Of a stretch of DNA of 64,000 bases, positions 3,144 to 15,837 are shown piece by piece. Made by a program: the position numbers and the translations under genes. Within the stretch, counting starts at the first letter, position 1, and the number at the start of each line of letters is the position of its first letter. This DNA is from a virus: IMG/VR virus record IMGVR_UViG_3300021963_004854, positions 1-64,000 of that record; one strand, 5' to 3'. The notes under the pieces are model-generated. The model was given only the letters and a program-made list of their open reading frames with translations, ran no database searches and was not told the DNA's origin.

Positions 3144-3714
3144 TTTTGACATTACAATGAAGTGGATGGAATACATCCGCAATAATCCAGAAAATGCATA
3201 TCGGTTCTCTGAAAACTTCTGGTCTAGTCAGATTGAAAGTAAGAAGTGGTTGCTTGAATGTATACCCGAAGACGCCCATACAATTTGTATTTTCGGTGGA
3301 TGGTATGGTATTCTAGCACAGTTTATTGCCGAGAAATTTCCCGACAGTTACATCGCAACAACTGACCTAGATCCTAGTTGCGAGGAAGTGTTCTATCAAA
3401 TTCGTACCAGCGATAACATTTATCATAAAACATGGAATATGCGAGATGGTATTCCTGATAGTTTGTGTCCAGACTTAGTAATCAATACAAGTAGCGAACA
3501 TGTGACGCAGGAAGTTTATGATGCTTGGTGGAACTCTATTCCAGCTGGTACTAAATACATCGTTCAAGGAAACAATCTAGAAAATCCCGAACATGTTCGA
3601 ACGTCAGATACTCTAGATGAATTTTTGAAAATTAACAAGATTAAAGACCCGCAGTATGCAGGAATGTTGCGCTGCGGTCATTTTTATAGGTTTATGGCGA
3701 CAGGTGTTAAATGA
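3136..3714 (+). CDS. SAM-methyltransferase-fold-like protein
   Basis: About 192 residues. The IFGGWYGILAQFIAEKF segment followed by the TTDLDP strand end resembles motifs I and II of a Rossmann-fold class I methyltransferase, and the later PDLVINTSSEHV stretch is in the motif IV position. The usual E/DxGxGxG is not present in classical form, so SAM binding is inferred. The start chosen is GTG 3136, preceded by GAGGA at a good distance; ATG 3157 is the alternative (185 residues). The stop overlaps the first radical SAM gene as ATGA. A second protein of the same apparent family lies at 50984-51640 (minus). Confidence 0.6.
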   Translation: MVNFDITMKWMEYIRNNPENAYRFSENFWSSQIESKKWLLECIPEDAHTICIFGGWYGILAQFIAEKFPDSYIATTDLDPSCEEVFYQIRTSDNIYHKTWNMRDGIPDSLCPDLVINTSSEHVTQEVYDAWWNSIPAGTKYIVQGNNLENPEHVRTSDTLDEFLKINKIKDPQYAGMLRCGHFYRFMATGVK

Positions 3715-5135
3715 GCGATAATATTAGAGGTGACGAAGTTACGCCAGACTTAAAGGGCGCCTACAAAAGTGTTTATTTTGAAAACACTAAAGATATGCTA
3801 GATGGTCTTAATAAAGTTAGTCCGTCATTCTGTCTTGCTAAGTGGTTTAATGTAAGCATTCACATTCCAACTGGTAGAACCCACAGTTGTTATCACCCAC
3901 AGACCCACAAAGTTCCTCTAGAAGAACTTGCTGCGGATCCGGGTGCTTTGCATAATACAAAGTATAAGAAAGAACAACGAAAGAAGATGTTGATGGGTGA
4001 AAGACCCAAGGAATGCTCTTTCTGTTGGGATATTGAAGATACTGGTAATATGAGCGATAGAGCATATCGCAGTTTTGATGTTAATGCACCGGGAGTAATC
4101 GATGAAGCCCTAGCAGTTGGTTTTGAGGGTAATCCGGCTCCAAAATATCTTGAGGTAAACTTCAATCAAGCATGTAACTTTAAATGTGCTTATTGTTCAC
4201 CTCACTTGTCAACTGAATGGCACAAAGAAGTTAAAGAGCATGGTCCATTCAAATTAGTAGACCGGACTCACAACGACGATAGTTGGATGAAGGCACAGGG
4301 CTGGGTTCCAGACAACTCACCGACTAATCCATATTTGACTGCATTCTGGGAGTGGTTCCCTACTGTCTATGACAAACTGAAAACGTTTAGAATGACGGGT
4401 GGTGAGCCATTGATGGACAAAAACACATTTAAGATTTTTGACCATGTGAAGAAGAATCCAAAAAAGGATCTTCAACTAAGCATTACTAGCAACTGTTGTC
4501 CACCAAAAGGCCAGTGGCAAAAGTTTATCGATGACTTGAAAGAAATTACAGACCAAGATGCTATTGATCATTTCATGTTGTTCTGTAGTCTAGATACTTG
4601 GGGTAAACAGGCAGAATATATCAGGACTGGTCTAGACTTTGATGTATTACATAAGAATATTACTCAATATCTGAGAGAATCTAATAAACATTCTTTGACT
4701 TTTATTATTACATGTAATATTCTATGTTTGCCTAATTGGATGACATACTTCCAAAATATTCTGGAACTTAGAAAGACATATAACACAGATAGACAGTTGA
4801 TTTGGTTTGATACTCCTATGCTTACTGACCCAAAGTGGATGAGCATGAAGTTGGCATCTAAAGAAATGCTACAGCCTCTTCTGGACAGCATTGCATTTAT
4901 GGAAGCAAATAAAGAGACAGTAGAAAATCGTTTCAAGGGTTTCAAAGACTATGAAATCGATAAGGTTCAACGTTTGTATGACTGGGCTGTAGAGCCTATG
5001 TCTAAGGAAGACGAAATTCTCTACAAGAAAAACTTCTATAAATATTTCGAACAATACGATGCCAGACGGAATCTTAATATCAGAGAAACTTTTCCAGAAC
5101 TGGTTCACTTTATCGATGACTGCGGGAAATTATAA
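3711..5135 (+). CDS. Radical SAM protein 1 with N-terminal twitch/SPASM-like Cys cluster
   Basis: 474 residues. The radical SAM 4Fe-4S motif CxxxCxxC is at C155, C159, C162 (ACNFKCAYC), followed by a GGEP motif (TGGEPLMD) for SAM binding. Ahead of it is a second cluster, C41, C60 with nearby His62/His66, and C102/C105 (ECSFCW), which looks like an auxiliary Fe-S or twitch/SPASM-like domain placed at the N-terminus rather than the usual C-terminus. Members of the radical SAM superfamily cleave SAM to a 5'-deoxyadenosyl radical; the substrate is unknown. ATGA overlap with the upstream methyltransferase-like gene and TAATG overlap with the next radical SAM gene show tight coupling. Confidence 0.9.
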   Translation: MSDNIRGDEVTPDLKGAYKSVYFENTKDMLDGLNKVSPSFCLAKWFNVSIHIPTGRTHSCYHPQTHKVPLEELAADPGALHNTKYKKEQRKKMLMGERPKECSFCWDIEDTGNMSDRAYRSFDVNAPGVIDEALAVGFEGNPAPKYLEVNFNQACNFKCAYCSPHLSTEWHKEVKEHGPFKLVDRTHNDDSWMKAQGWVPDNSPTNPYLTAFWEWFPTVYDKLKTFRMTGGEPLMDKNTFKIFDHVKKNPKKDLQLSITSNCCPPKGQWQKFIDDLKEITDQDAIDHFMLFCSLDTWGKQAEYIRTGLDFDVLHKNITQYLRESNKHSLTFIITCNILCLPNWMTYFQNILELRKTYNTDRQLIWFDTPMLTDPKWMSMKLASKEMLQPLLDSIAFMEANKETVENRFKGFKDYEIDKVQRLYDWAVEPMSKEDEILYKKNFYKYFEQYDARRNLNIRETFPELVHFIDDCGKL

Positions 5136-6664
5136 TGACTGACAAATTGAAGAACCACGGTGGTTCTCTTCATACTTACAAGAATGAATTCATCAACAAG
5201 CTAAGTCCATCTTTCTGTGGCGCTAAATGGTACAATGCAACTATTTGGCTTGGTACTGGGCAGACCGCTAGTTGCCATCACCCGCCCGCACATGCGATCG
5301 ATCCTAAAGAACTAGAGACAAATCCTTCTGCAATTCATAATACGCAACACAAAAAGCAGATGCGTAAGTTGATGCAAGAAGGCGTTCGTCCTAATGAGTG
5401 TGAATATTGCTGGAAAATCGAAGACATGGGTAAGGATAGTATTTCCGACCGTGTTATGAAATCAATTACATTCACCGACGAAGAAAATGTCGAAGCGCAG
5501 AATATGCCATGGGATTCAGATGTTCAACTAAGAACTCTTGAAATTAGCTTTGATAGAACTTGCAATTTTGCATGTTCGTATTGTAATCCATCCTTTAGCA
5601 CTTCCTGGGTGCGTGATATCAAGCAAAATGGTCCGTATCAGAATATTCAGAGTGACGGTCGCGGTCACTATGTTTCGTCTCATGATCATGCCAAGGGATT
5701 CAACAGCGAAGATAATAATCCCTATATTCAGGCATTCTGGAAATGGTTCGAGGGTGACCTATCGGAGCATCTAAGAGAATTGCGTATTACTGGTGGTGAA
5801 CCTCTGATGGCACCAAGTGTATGGAAGCTATTCGACTGGTTCAAAGATAATCCAGAACGAGCGCAGAAGTTGAATTTTGCCATCAATTCTAACATGCATC
5901 CTAAACAAGAGTTGCTAGACAGATTGATTGAAAAATCACATAATGTTCCTGTGCTAGATGTATATACTAGCATGGAAAGCGTGGGTAGTATGGCGGAATA
6001 CATTCGTGACGGTCTAGACTATGCTCAATGGTTTAAAAATGTTGAGCGTCTGATTAAAGAGGGTAATGTCCGTCAGATGATTTGTATGTCAACCATCAAT
6101 GGACTATGTTTACCGGGTCTAGTAGATTTTCTAACTGAAATGCGCTACTTCAAAAAGACTTACGGTTGGCAATACATGACTGTATCGTTGAACGTTCTAC
6201 GTTTTCCTAGTTTCCAGTCTTGTGCGATGTTGCCAGATGAAATCAAGATGAAATACAAGAATGAGTTGCAACAGTGGTACGATAACGTCAAAGCAAATCT
6301 TACAACAGACCTTGACCCGACCGGCAAACCTCTGTATAATCAGTGGGAACTTTCGCAGGTCGAAAGACTGATTGATTATTTAGATATTATTAAGACACCT
6401 CACGCATTTACCGCGGAGACTCCGAAACTGTATAACGATTTTAAGCAATATTATTTACAGTATGACCGTCGTCGCGGCAAGAATTTCAGAGAAACATTTC
6501 CAGTAGAATATGTTGATTTTATCAACTCTATTCCGGGTGATGATCCGGTCGCTCTTATTAAAGTGCAGGAAGAAAATCTTATTCCCAAGTTGATTCCAGA
6601 TGAAGTGTTACATGATATTAAAACAGGCGGCGGCTATGTTAGTGATGAGTTAAAGAATGAGTGA
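5135..6664 (+). CDS. Radical SAM protein 2 with N-terminal twitch/SPASM-like Cys cluster
   Basis: 509 residues, the longest of the four. CxxxCxxC is at C143, C147, C150 (TCNFACSYC), with TGGEPLMA downstream. The N-terminal auxiliary cysteines C28, C47, C89, C92 keep the same spacing as the previous paralogue (19 residues between the first two, then CxxCW). A C-terminal extension of roughly 40 residues beyond the RGKNFRETFP region is not matched in protein 3. The start overlaps the previous stop (TAATG) and the next gene starts 8 bases before this stop. Confidence 0.9.
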   Translation: MTDKLKNHGGSLHTYKNEFINKLSPSFCGAKWYNATIWLGTGQTASCHHPPAHAIDPKELETNPSAIHNTQHKKQMRKLMQEGVRPNECEYCWKIEDMGKDSISDRVMKSITFTDEENVEAQNMPWDSDVQLRTLEISFDRTCNFACSYCNPSFSTSWVRDIKQNGPYQNIQSDGRGHYVSSHDHAKGFNSEDNNPYIQAFWKWFEGDLSEHLRELRITGGEPLMAPSVWKLFDWFKDNPERAQKLNFAINSNMHPKQELLDRLIEKSHNVPVLDVYTSMESVGSMAEYIRDGLDYAQWFKNVERLIKEGNVRQMICMSTINGLCLPGLVDFLTEMRYFKKTYGWQYMTVSLNVLRFPSFQSCAMLPDEIKMKYKNELQQWYDNVKANLTTDLDPTGKPLYNQWELSQVERLIDYLDIIKTPHAFTAETPKLYNDFKQYYLQYDRRRGKNFRETFPVEYVDFINSIPGDDPVALIKVQEENLIPKLIPDEVLHDIKTGGGYVSDELKNE

Positions 6665-13972: not shown

Positions 13973-14569
13973 ATGATATTAAATATCACTCCTTTGATTT
14001 GTTATTTCGATGATTTTATTTCAGAAGAAGATAGACTTCATATTATAAGTCTGGCTGAAAAACAGGTGGAACCATCTACTGTGTGCGCACCTGATAAAGT
14101 AGAAAGTGTTTTCGACCCGGGCAGAACTAGTAATCATACGTTTATTCCCACTACGTTCGATGACACAATCATATCGTTGACCGCAAAAATTTCGAAGTTT
14201 GCAAATCTTCACCCCGCTACCGCAGAACCTTTGCAGGTAGTTCGTTATGAAGTGGGTGAAGAATATAAGCCGCATTATGATGCATGGGATTACACTGAGC
14301 AAAAAAATTGGCAAGGTAAAGCTGGTCAAAGAATTTTAACTGCATTGCTATATCTGAATGAAGTTGAAGAAGGTGGTAATACTATCTTTCCAAATCTAGA
14401 TTTAGAAATTGACCCACGACCCGGCAGAATAGTGTTTTTTCATAATGTTTGGCCAGCTAATCCACATCGTCATCCGCAAGCGTTACACGGGGGTGCGCCC
14501 GTGACAAAAGGTACCAAATGGGTATGCAATTTGTGGTTCAGAGAAAGAATATGGGAAAATGCTGACTGA
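13973..14569 (+). CDS. 2OG-Fe(II) oxygenase, prolyl-4-hydroxylase type
   Basis: 198 residues. Iron ligands are seen as HxD (H101, D103 in KPHYDAW) and distal His172 in ALHGGAPV, with Lys182 ten residues on to bind 2-oxoglutarate; the arrangement is that of the P4H family. VVRYEVGEEY and EGGNTIFP are typical family strands. It probably hydroxylates a peptide or other substrate; phage homologues are common in marine T4-like genomes. Its 3' end overlaps the next small gene by 11 bases. Confidence 0.88.
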   Translation: MILNITPLICYFDDFISEEDRLHIISLAEKQVEPSTVCAPDKVESVFDPGRTSNHTFIPTTFDDTIISLTAKISKFANLHPATAEPLQVVRYEVGEEYKPHYDAWDYTEQKNWQGKAGQRILTALLYLNEVEEGGNTIFPNLDLEIDPRPGRIVFFHNVWPANPHRHPQALHGGAPVTKGTKWVCNLWFRERIWENAD

Positions 14570-14735
14570 TTTCTCAGAAGTAGAACGCCGATTAAACATA
14601 TGCAAAACTTGTCAATTCAAGAGAATGGGAGTTTGTATGAAATGTGGCTGCATTATTGTAACAAAAGTTAGAGTTTCTTCTGCAAAATGTCCGGTTGGCA
14701 AATGGGAATCTCTTGACAATCAAGAGCAAACCTGA
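14559..14735 (+). CDS. Small zinc-ribbon-like protein
   Basis: 58 residues, with cysteines C15, C18, C26, C29, C31 and C44 in CKTCQF, CMKCGC and KCPVGKW, a compact zinc-binding pattern resembling DUF6171-type small phage proteins. ATG 14559 overlaps the end of the oxygenase gene by 11 bases. The stop is followed directly by the TATAAATA late promoter of the tmRNA gene. Role unknown; a nucleic-acid-binding or regulatory role is only an inference. Confidence 0.8.
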   Translation: MLTDFSEVERRLNICKTCQFKRMGVCMKCGCIIVTKVRVSSAKCPVGKWESLDNQEQT

Positions 14736-14743
14736 TATAAATA
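14736..14743 (+). promoter_or_regulatory. T4-type late promoter for the tmRNA gene
   Basis: Perfect TATAAATA. Initiation about 6 bases downstream (near 14749) would give a primary transcript whose 5' end is the tmRNA acceptor piece. Matches the late motif ahead of gp13 and gp18 in this window. Confidence 0.75.
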
Positions 14744-14748
14744 AATTA

Positions 14749-14812
14749 TCAGTTGTTGACAGGCAACAATAAAGGCGGAAAGACGCGGGTGCAACTCCCG
14801 CCACCTCCACCA
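14749..14812 (+). ncRNA. tmRNA acceptor piece
   Basis: About 64 bases: a TTGTTG/CAACAA hairpin near the 5' end, the P2 3' strand, the T arm (14785-14801), the 3' acceptor strand (14802-14808), A14809 and CCA 14810-14812. There is no anticodon arm, so it is not a tRNA. The 5' end is inferred from the late promoter; processing could trim it. Confidence 0.85.
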
Positions 14813-14879
14813 TAGATACACCAAGGTCCGACCCGAAAGGGGTGCCTACTAAAGTGAGGGATGATGGTGTATCTATTAT
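14813..14879 (+). other. tmRNA intervening segment (removed by processing)
   Basis: 67 bases between the acceptor CCA and the coding-piece 5' end. Its flanks are a perfect 11-bp inverted repeat, TAGATACACCA (14813-14823) and TGGTGTATCTA (14865-14875), which extends the acceptor stem into a continuous hairpin in the precursor. RNase P and 3' processing enzymes would be expected to cut at its borders. Confidence 0.8.
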
Positions 14880-15113
14880 GGGGGTGAACTAGGATCGATT
14901 TTCGTGTAATAGGAAGTCCGAGACTGATTGCTTGGCAAAGTGCCACTAAAAGTAAATGCAAACGATAACGTTGCCTTTGCAGGATATGCGCTAGCCGCAT
15001 GATCCCATTGGGTTTTTGATAGTTTTCCCTCGAAACAGAATAAAACTATCACCTGTTCTTCATATACGACGAAATGCGTGGAAGTAGAACTTAGAAACGC
15101 TAAATAGTTATAT
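14880..15113 (+). ncRNA. tmRNA coding piece
   Basis: Begins GGGGGTG and GGATCGA, the tRNA-like 5' region. A TGGCA/TGCCA hairpin precedes the tag frame, CCC-ATT-GGG and a 9-bp hairpin (15018-15050) follow it, and a GTTCT/AGAAC pairing follows that. The 3' end is not determined; it may lie anywhere up to the terminator-like stem at 15114. Confidence 0.75.
14958..15002 (+). CDS. tmRNA proteolysis tag reading frame
   Basis: Resume codon GCA at 14958, then AAC GAT AAC GTT GCC and so on to TGA at 15000-15002: ANDNVAFAGYALAA. The N-terminal AND and C-terminal ALAA are the conserved ends of bacterial tags; ALAA is the ClpXP/ClpAP recognition element. With the tRNA-borne alanine the added peptide is AANDNVAFAGYALAA. 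Confidence 0.92.
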   Translation, partial: ANDNVAFAGYALAA

Positions 15114-15159
15114 GACCCGAAGTGTGTAACTGAATAAGCCAAACACAGCGGGTCTTTTT
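15114..15159 (+). terminator. Probable terminator at the end of the tmRNA gene
   Basis: GACCCG (15114-15119) pairs with CGGGTC (15149-15154), TGTGT (15123-15127) with ACACA (15143-15147), and TTTTT follows. It could alternatively be a tmRNA pseudoknot element. Directly after it is a UUCG-tetraloop hairpin, TTTGTC/GACAAA (15157-15172), which may act in 3' processing. From 15173 to the next gene only a short CAGTG/CACTG hairpin is seen. Confidence 0.55.
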
Positions 15160-15231
15160 GTCTTCGGACAAATCAGTGTGGGGAGTCACTGGCTAATACC
15201 CTCTCAAGTTTAACAACCAAATGGAAATAAG

Positions 15232-15837
15232 ATGACTTCCTTAAACAAGAAGTTCTTCAAGTTTCTTTCGATTATTACACTATTAAGTTATGGTTTATAT
15301 GGAATTAATTCATATGCTGAAACTGCCATCGAAAGAGAAGCAAGGGAATATTCCCTCGGCGTCGGAGAAGTAATCCAGGGCATCAAAGAAGATGCTCAAG
15401 AACAACAACGTAAAGTAACACAACAAAAAATCCAGACACAAAATATCCGTCTGGCAAATAATAGAGAATTGAAGTGTCTAGCAGACAACATCTATTATGA
15501 GGCTGGTAACCAGCCTACTCGCGGCAAATTGGCCGTTGCTGCCGTCACTATCAATAGGGTAAATAGCCCGAAGTTTCCGAAATCAGTATGCTCCGTTGTA
15601 TACCAGAGAACAAAACGTGTTTGTCAATTCTCGTGGGTATGCGAAGGAAAGAAGAGTGTCCGCAGTGCGCAACAATATGCAGAAGCCAAAAGAGTAGCTG
15701 AAAAGGTACTGTTCGCTGGGGCAAATCATGGCGTATTAGGTAAAAATGTTCTATTCTACCATGCCGACTATGTAAATCCAGGTTGGAATCTTCGTAGAGT
15801 AACTAAAATTGGTGATCATATATTTTATGCAGGATAA
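15232..15837 (+). CDS. Exported SleB-type cell-wall hydrolase, endolysin candidate
   Basis: 201 residues. An N-terminal signal sequence (basic start, hydrophobic 11-28, likely cleavage after SYA29) is followed by a short coiled-coil-like linker and then a Hydrolase_2/SleB domain: CLADNIYYEAGNQP (Glu90 is the candidate catalytic acid), AVAAVTINRV, FCQFSW-like CQFSWVCEG, and HGVLGKNVLFYHADYV. SleB-type enzymes are lytic transglycosylase-like peptidoglycan hydrolases. A signal peptide would let it reach the periplasm by the Sec route without a holin-made hole. No holin is obvious nearby. A related domain is in the gp5-like protein at 27613-28650. Confidence 0.85.
   Translation: MTSLNKKFFKFLSIITLLSYGLYGINSYAETAIEREAREYSLGVGEVIQGIKEDAQEQQRKVTQQKIQTQNIRLANNRELKCLADNIYYEAGNQPTRGKLAVAAVTINRVNSPKFPKSVCSVVYQRTKRVCQFSWVCEGKKSVRSAQQYAEAKRVAEKVLFAGANHGVLGKNVLFYHADYVNPGWNLRRVTKIGDHIFYAG

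Follow-up and report, generated by a model that had tools for sequence, protein, structure and literature searches.

Here we show that a complete permuted tmRNA gene of the alphaproteobacterial type lies at 14749-15050 of the window, which is the whole stretch of DNA analysed, namely the initial 64,000 nucleotides of an IMG/VR virus record of 171,566 bases. The intervening segment (IVS) between the two halves of such genes is, as judged by comparison of sequences, exchanged as a cassette among related phages. We consider it likely that the IVS of the tmRNA of T4-like aquatic phages serves as a recombining slot for small protein genes, by which one transcript would yield rescue RNA as well as protein. 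Such a slot would be constrained only by TGAT and the helix that closes it, with translation and processing possibly competing. Its predicted cargo, which would be translated on the tmRNA precursor or on the IVS after excision, comprises membrane peptides, DUF2061-like proteins and Cys-rich proteins.

ARAGORN called a permuted tmRNA at 14720-15093 of the window with the tag ANDNVAFAGYALAA, the tag that an earlier note on this DNA had read. The Rfam model tmRNA_permuted (RF04321) matched 14751-15002 with 101.8 bits (gathering 47, E 1.1e-18), and alpha_tmRNA (RF01849) matched 14709-15050 with 71.8 bits (gathering 50). A match by chance is ruled out for this gene. The features are as follows.

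14713-14743, plus strand: likely promoter, TTGACA at 14713-14718, 17 nt spacer and TATAAATA at 14736-14743; aligned in relatives
14749-14812, plus strand: acceptor piece with P2 5' strand, T arm, CACCTCC, discriminator A and CCA; from direct reading, ARAGORN, Rfam and alignment
14813-14879, plus strand: IVS of 67 nt, non-coding, a hairpin continuous with the acceptor stem and site of an exchangeable cassette; from fold, covariation and exchange
14880-15050, plus strand: coding (mRNA-like) piece, from GGGGGTG to the terminal helix 15018-15026/15042-15050; the alpha_tmRNA match ends at 15050
14958-15002, plus strand: tag reading frame ANDNVAFAGYALAA and TGA stop; from ARAGORN, tag common to relatives
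15114-15159, plus strand: terminator-like hairpin GACCCG...CGGGTC followed by T5; aligned equivalents in relatives

Direct reading placed the acceptor half upstream of the coding half, with CACCTCC at 14802-14808, A at 14809, an encoded CCA at 14810-14812 and an uninterrupted T arm. CACCTCC pairs with GGGGGTG (14880-14886) at 7 of 7 positions, G3-U70 among them, and in P2 CGGAAA (14776-14781) pairs with TTTTCG (14899-14904) at 6 of 6 positions, one pair being G-U. The order of the halves, the acceptor pairing and P2 were thus as the earlier note had proposed, and the covariance-model and ARAGORN checks that it had suggested bore it out. The tag frame possesses a resume codon and a hydrophobic end.

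The promoter-like element is conserved in the aligned relatives as TTGAC-N17-TATAAATA-like sequence (-35 TTGAC, -10 TATAAA/TATATA). A consensus promoter scanner, for which the -10 box must end in T, called no site at 14713-14743. The 3' end of a 58-residue Cys-rich ORF (14559-14735, phrog_13558) reaches into the promoter's -35 element. Both strands of the terminal helix vary among the aligned relatives. The tmRNA probably ends near 15050, and the sequence onward to 15159 is a poorly conserved 3' flank. The interval 14749-15159 given by the earlier note therefore stood as to the start and location of the gene, and its 3' part is better assigned to this flank with the terminator-like hairpin. 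The stem of that hairpin is changed in relatives such as L081 and L091 and the hairpin is absent from L095, L098, L102 and L103 in the alignment; a terminator scanner with a loop limit of 8 did not call it. Beyond it, the endolysin upstream leader CAGTGTGGGGAGTCACTGG-TAATACCCTCTC (15170-15210) is strongly conserved in all aligned relatives and gave no Rfam match.

Phage permuted tmRNAs were gathered from IMG/VR by seven pattern scans and from contigs carrying gp32, and the genomes of these relatives are mostly metagenomic contigs. Parsing of the matches listed gave 343 distinct phage genes; their IVSs, 311 of them distinct, range from 3 to 499 nt in length. Since the survey covers the matches listed and the last three patterns were derived from IVS 3' ends, its frequencies are not population estimates. 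In the pair counts, pN/pS values and covariation counts related sequences were treated as separate, and the events are not independent. Among the matches listed, G3-U70 was present in all 343 phage relatives and the acceptor stem was paired at 7 of 7 positions in 342 of them, the stem being partly required by the pattern, in which position 70 could be T, C or G. True halves formed a mean of 5.07 pairs in P2 as compared to 4.25 for mismatched halves. The tag ended in LAA in 109 of 129 distinct phage tags among the matches listed. Tags of L127, L128 and L129 end in MVA (ANDNSYRMVA) rather than LAA, and those of L019, L064, L067 and L070 have 28-29 residues (ADFKANGNVTFVNFGAKLPTNEEFALAA, ANLKASGNVTFVDFKAKLPTNEQVFALAA), about twice the usual length, in genes whose IVS is without the usual closing helix. 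One alphaproteobacterial genome carried a second, weaker alpha_tmRNA match (L610, G196:C5:288509-288849, 72.8 bits), possibly a prophage copy.

Alignment of close relatives showed both halves to be conserved and the IVS to be different in nearly every relative. The median phage IVS was 75 nt long (120 IVSs of an earlier, less biased subset) as compared to 36 nt for cellular IVSs (n=82, mostly alphaproteobacterial and read by eye; p = 7.5e-16), and the median closing helix was 11 pairs in phages as compared to 4 in cells. The first eight bases of the IVS pair with the last eight before TGAT at 7.4 of 8 positions, which fell to 3.35 and 2.81 when the strands were slid by one. Several pair types occur per position of this helix, which is continuous with the acceptor stem (phage genes among the matches listed). 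Also among the matches listed, the TGAT linker joins the helix to the coding half in 284 of 311 IVSs and T precedes G1 in 297 of 311. A T preceding G1 would suit cleavage by RNase P. For the precursor of the window, folding gave one unbroken hairpin that takes in the acceptor stem (-41.2 kcal/mol, z = -4.55).

The explanation that we favour overall, and hold to be probable, is that of a phage-borne permuted two-piece ssrA, processed by the host for ribosome rescue and using its IVS as a cassette slot; it takes in the observed gene, helix, exchange and selection on reading frames, and would give them a function, a processing route and translation. A single precursor would be transcribed from the gene's own promoter, and its two halves would be kept together by the hairpin of the IVS (14813-14879), which runs on from the acceptor stem. 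Host RNase P would cleave between U14879 and G14880, 3' processing would leave CCA at 14812, and the two RNAs would remain paired via the acceptor stem and P2. The acceptor piece would be charged by host alanyl-tRNA synthetase through G3-U70, host SmpB would bring the charged RNA to stalled ribosomes, and the ...ALAA tag would mark the product for proteolysis. The part in rescue, the timing late in infection and the altered tag fate that the earlier note had proposed are putative. Since the closing helix and the TGAT linker alone would be needed, the IVS would be free to be replaced; ribosomes would read small protein genes lodged there either on the uncut precursor or on the IVS once released, the allele of the window being a non-coding cassette.

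No SmpB was found in the 171.6 kb record by a search that matches 10 of 14 control genomes, which would also suit a phage tmRNA acting as a decoy or modifier. Instead of adding rescue capacity, such an RNA would vie with the host tmRNA for SmpB and ribosomes, or replace the host tag by one of different fate. There is a precedent in a tag-less phage tmRNA (DS6A), which is reported to inhibit endogenous tmRNA in E. coli (PMC11915505). However, phages keep an intact tag frame, resume region and ...LAA end, all of which would be superfluous for a pure decoy, and we regard this role as unlikely, though the most serious of the alternatives.

Exchange of the IVS was evident from comparison of backbones with IVSs. 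Among the matches listed, 144 pairs had backbones at least 95% alike, and in 32 of these the IVSs were less than 55% alike, i.e. at the level of unrelated sequences; conversely, IVSs were at least 85% alike in 228 pairs, of which 38 had backbones less than 80% alike. The gene and IVS of L041 are nearly the same as those of the window. The next relatives by backbone, L163 (95%) and L229 and L213 (92%), have unrelated IVSs, and the IVS of the window recurs at 97% in L165 (backbone 83%) and at 91% in L029 (backbone 77%). The backbone of L165 is 99% identical to that of L242, the IVS of which encodes a Cys-rich protein. Thus, with matching backbones and different IVSs, cassettes of the window type and protein-coding cassettes are alternative occupants of one slot.

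The IVS of the window has no ORF and is non-coding, and its place in the picture of the cargo therefore rests on comparison with relatives. Among the matches listed, an ORF fills at least 68% of the IVS in 115 of 175 phage IVSs of at least 80 nt, the ORF test having been applied to phage IVSs only. Since these 115 include some chance ORFs in GC-rich IVSs, we relied on families. Eleven families of IVS ORFs, covering about 80 distinct IVSs among the matches listed, had in-frame pN/pS of 0.07-0.45, a measure that is weak on its own for two-member and near-identical families. The largest family is a membrane peptide of 38-44 residues, represented by 45 distinct copies whose nucleotide identity falls as low as 48%; its pN/pS is 0.31 in frame as compared to 1.07 and 1.69 in the other frames. 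Shine-Dalgarno-like bases precede 71 of 95 ORF ATGs versus 104 of 361 other ATGs, and the TGA of the TGAT linker is the stop codon in several IVS ORFs. In L232, L265, L428, L442 and their relatives, a short ORF AAAGGAGATT with its own Shine-Dalgarno sequence lies inside the closing helix of the membrane-peptide IVS and overlaps the start of the peptide ORF, an arrangement with possible translational coupling.

The IVS ORF of L246, L257 and L690 approached DUF2061 (PF09834) with 22.3 bits against a cut-off of 23.1, and a free DUF2061 homologue adjoining the tmRNA in L098, L225 and L239 scored 29.2 bits, above the cut-off; in these three the IVS is reduced to three bases, TAT, between CCA and GGGGGTG, and the DUF2061-like gene lies directly upstream. 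Free-standing homologues beside the tmRNA of other phages were found for the membrane peptide, Cys-rich and DUF2061 families upstream and for the L178 and L645 families downstream. Because homologues stand free beside the tmRNA, genes may have moved into the slot from its flanks, or a half of the tmRNA may have crossed them. The ORF of L083, L091 and L095 is predicted to encode a Cys-rich protein; a Bfd-like [2Fe-2S] ferredoxin was considered for it and not confirmed, as only a CxC...CxxC pattern was present and no Pfam, PHROG or PDB match was found. The Cys-rich protein gave chance-level matches only in INPHARED, searches of INPHARED with three IVS protein families gave no match, and PHROGs held no family for the IVS proteins. 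The MFDR family matched INPHARED weakly (E about 1) inside the SsrA of phage Melnitz, which led to an unannotated IVS ORF, MFKWLSKTRLVVITRDYF.../MFKWLSKTRLVVITRDYFRERNRKADAKIPKYLSGT..., within the annotated SsrA of that phage (MZ577097.1, L943:1320-1772). The Melnitz ORF is related to that of L420.

Of the tmRNAs that enclose coding IVSs, all 12 tested exceeded the Rfam cut-offs, 100 of 108 tags read at such loci end in AA, and the closing helix is kept equally well, with at least 7 of 8 pairs in 97% of ORF-bearing IVSs, which shows that these are not mispaired halves. ARAGORN called a tmRNA at only 69 of the 115 loci. Ten neighbouring proteins from ten loci were tested and seven strongly matched phage families (exonucleases, gp32-type SSB, PhoH, DnaB-type helicase), which places the loci in phages; the remaining three gave no or weak matches. 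It could be argued that the IVS is a mere variable spacer and that the ORFs are chance frames in AT-rich RNA. Individually the ORFs are indeed weak, with shuffling giving p <= 0.05 for 22 of the 55 IVSs that are 80 nt or longer, and most of the GC-richer IVSs have no ORF. However, purifying selection specific to the frame in 11 families, the homology to DUF2061, the free-standing homologues next to the tmRNA and the enrichment of Shine-Dalgarno sequences speak against chance, and we consider it quite improbable.

A glutamine-controlled tmRNA, as proposed for Melnitz, would make the 3' flank a glutamine riboswitch, and a string similar to the motif, GGAAGTAG, lies at 15080-15087. Relatives do not conserve this string, and the glutamine riboswitch model (RF01739) gave no match at E <= 10 in 14600-15400, whereas Melnitz as positive control gave 52.8 bits; a riboswitch in the 3' flank of the window was rejected as very improbable.

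That the gene is phage-encoded, as the earlier note had held, was supported by its context. The 171.6 kb record carries T4-like replication and structural genes, and in the window the order is PhoH, exonuclease (phrog_298), 2OG-Fe(II) oxygenase, tmRNA, endolysin, DNA methyltransferase, gp59-type helicase loader and gp32-type SSB, followed past gp32 by T4-type tail tube, baseplate wedge and hub, and terminase. The phage is a T4-like myophage with T4-type core genes. An adjacent gene pair with radical-SAM similarity is present at 3711-6664 of the window, and the rest of the record holds 25 tRNA genes, at about 125-133 kb of G000 (L006:1259-9427) and at L004:12796-12872, of which 24 form one cluster.

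On many of 80 contigs selected via gp32 as a sample of relatives, a permuted tmRNA precedes gp32 at a distance of a few kilobases, and the relatives nearest by gp32 have the identical or a shortened tag (ANDNVAFAGYALAA, ANDNVAFALAA); ANDNVAFAGYALAA is common to L041, L052, L062, L063, L081, L083-L086 and L092. This synteny and the shared tag indicate that the tmRNA is an old resident of the phage lineage. A DNA search of INPHARED with 24 kb around the tmRNA, which bears on relatedness to the Kyanoviridae of Mosig and Melnitz, gave no nucleotide match, and the matches to the window were tRNA-like fragments only, plus Mosig at the tmRNA. The origin from an alphaproteobacterial host that the earlier note had suggested holds for the type of RNA; recent capture from a present-day host was not supported, since the closest matches among 220 cellular loci, a limited sample, are stretches of 25-41 nt only. 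Host DNA, either as a cellular ssrA fused to the phage contig by a false join, which the earlier note had named as a possible refutation, or as a decaying passenger, would agree with the alphaproteobacterial type of the RNA but is the least credible reading of all; host contamination was rejected because of identical or syntenic copies beside gp32, exonuclease and PhoH on many independent phage contigs and of copies in the cultured phages Mosig and Melnitz.

The presence of a two-piece tmRNA in a phage is not new, as one has been described in phage Melnitz, an ARAGORN survey of phage genomes counted 53, of which 50 were marine or aquatic (PMC9004378), and Pelagibacter phage Mosig has an annotated SsrA; the surprise that the earlier note had seen in a phage-borne tmRNA was thus forestalled by 2022. 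The part that is apparently undescribed, and the most unusual one, is the behaviour of the IVS, i.e. its closing helix, cassette exchange and protein genes, of which we found no description in the open-access literature. Phage tmRNAs have hitherto been treated as captured host genes. A protein gene within the processing spacer of a structured RNA would be a compact architecture, and one overlooked by annotation, as the ARAGORN calls at coding loci and the unannotated ORF of Melnitz illustrate; annotators may therefore search for ORFs within phage ssrA genes. Coordination of translation and RNA processing on a single phage transcript becomes testable, as does a possible control of infection at the step of tmRNA processing.

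Mosig EXVC030M and Melnitz EXVC044M (Kyanoviridae; PMC9004378) resemble the window in having an alphaproteobacterial-type permuted ssrA in a T4-like phage and in its replication-gene neighbourhood (helicase loader, PD-(D/E)XK nuclease). Melnitz differs in the glutamine riboswitch downstream (52.8 bits, at a comparable location), which the window lacks, and in the ORF of its IVS (MFKWLSKTRLVVITRDYF...), where the window has none. The alphaproteobacterial two-piece tmRNA (RF01849, RF04321; Caulobacter) shares the order of the halves, the acceptor stem, G3-U70 and the tag start ANDN, but its IVS is shorter (36 versus 75 nt) and its closing helix weaker (4 versus 11 pairs). Single cases of a permuted tmRNA IVS carrying a tRNA-Ala gene or a repeat are known from MAGs and resemble the phage slot in that the IVS carries something else; a protein-coding IVS is not mentioned in the sections of that source that were examined (PMC11915505). 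The same source describes group I introns in tmRNA genes; some of these introns carry homing endonuclease genes, so that a protein gene is likewise nested in a tmRNA gene. An intron of this kind was rejected for the window, where the T arm is continuous and no intron family matched in the region. Group I introns of this kind self-splice in the T loop and the ends are rejoined, whereas the phage IVS would be a processing spacer that is removed with no splicing.
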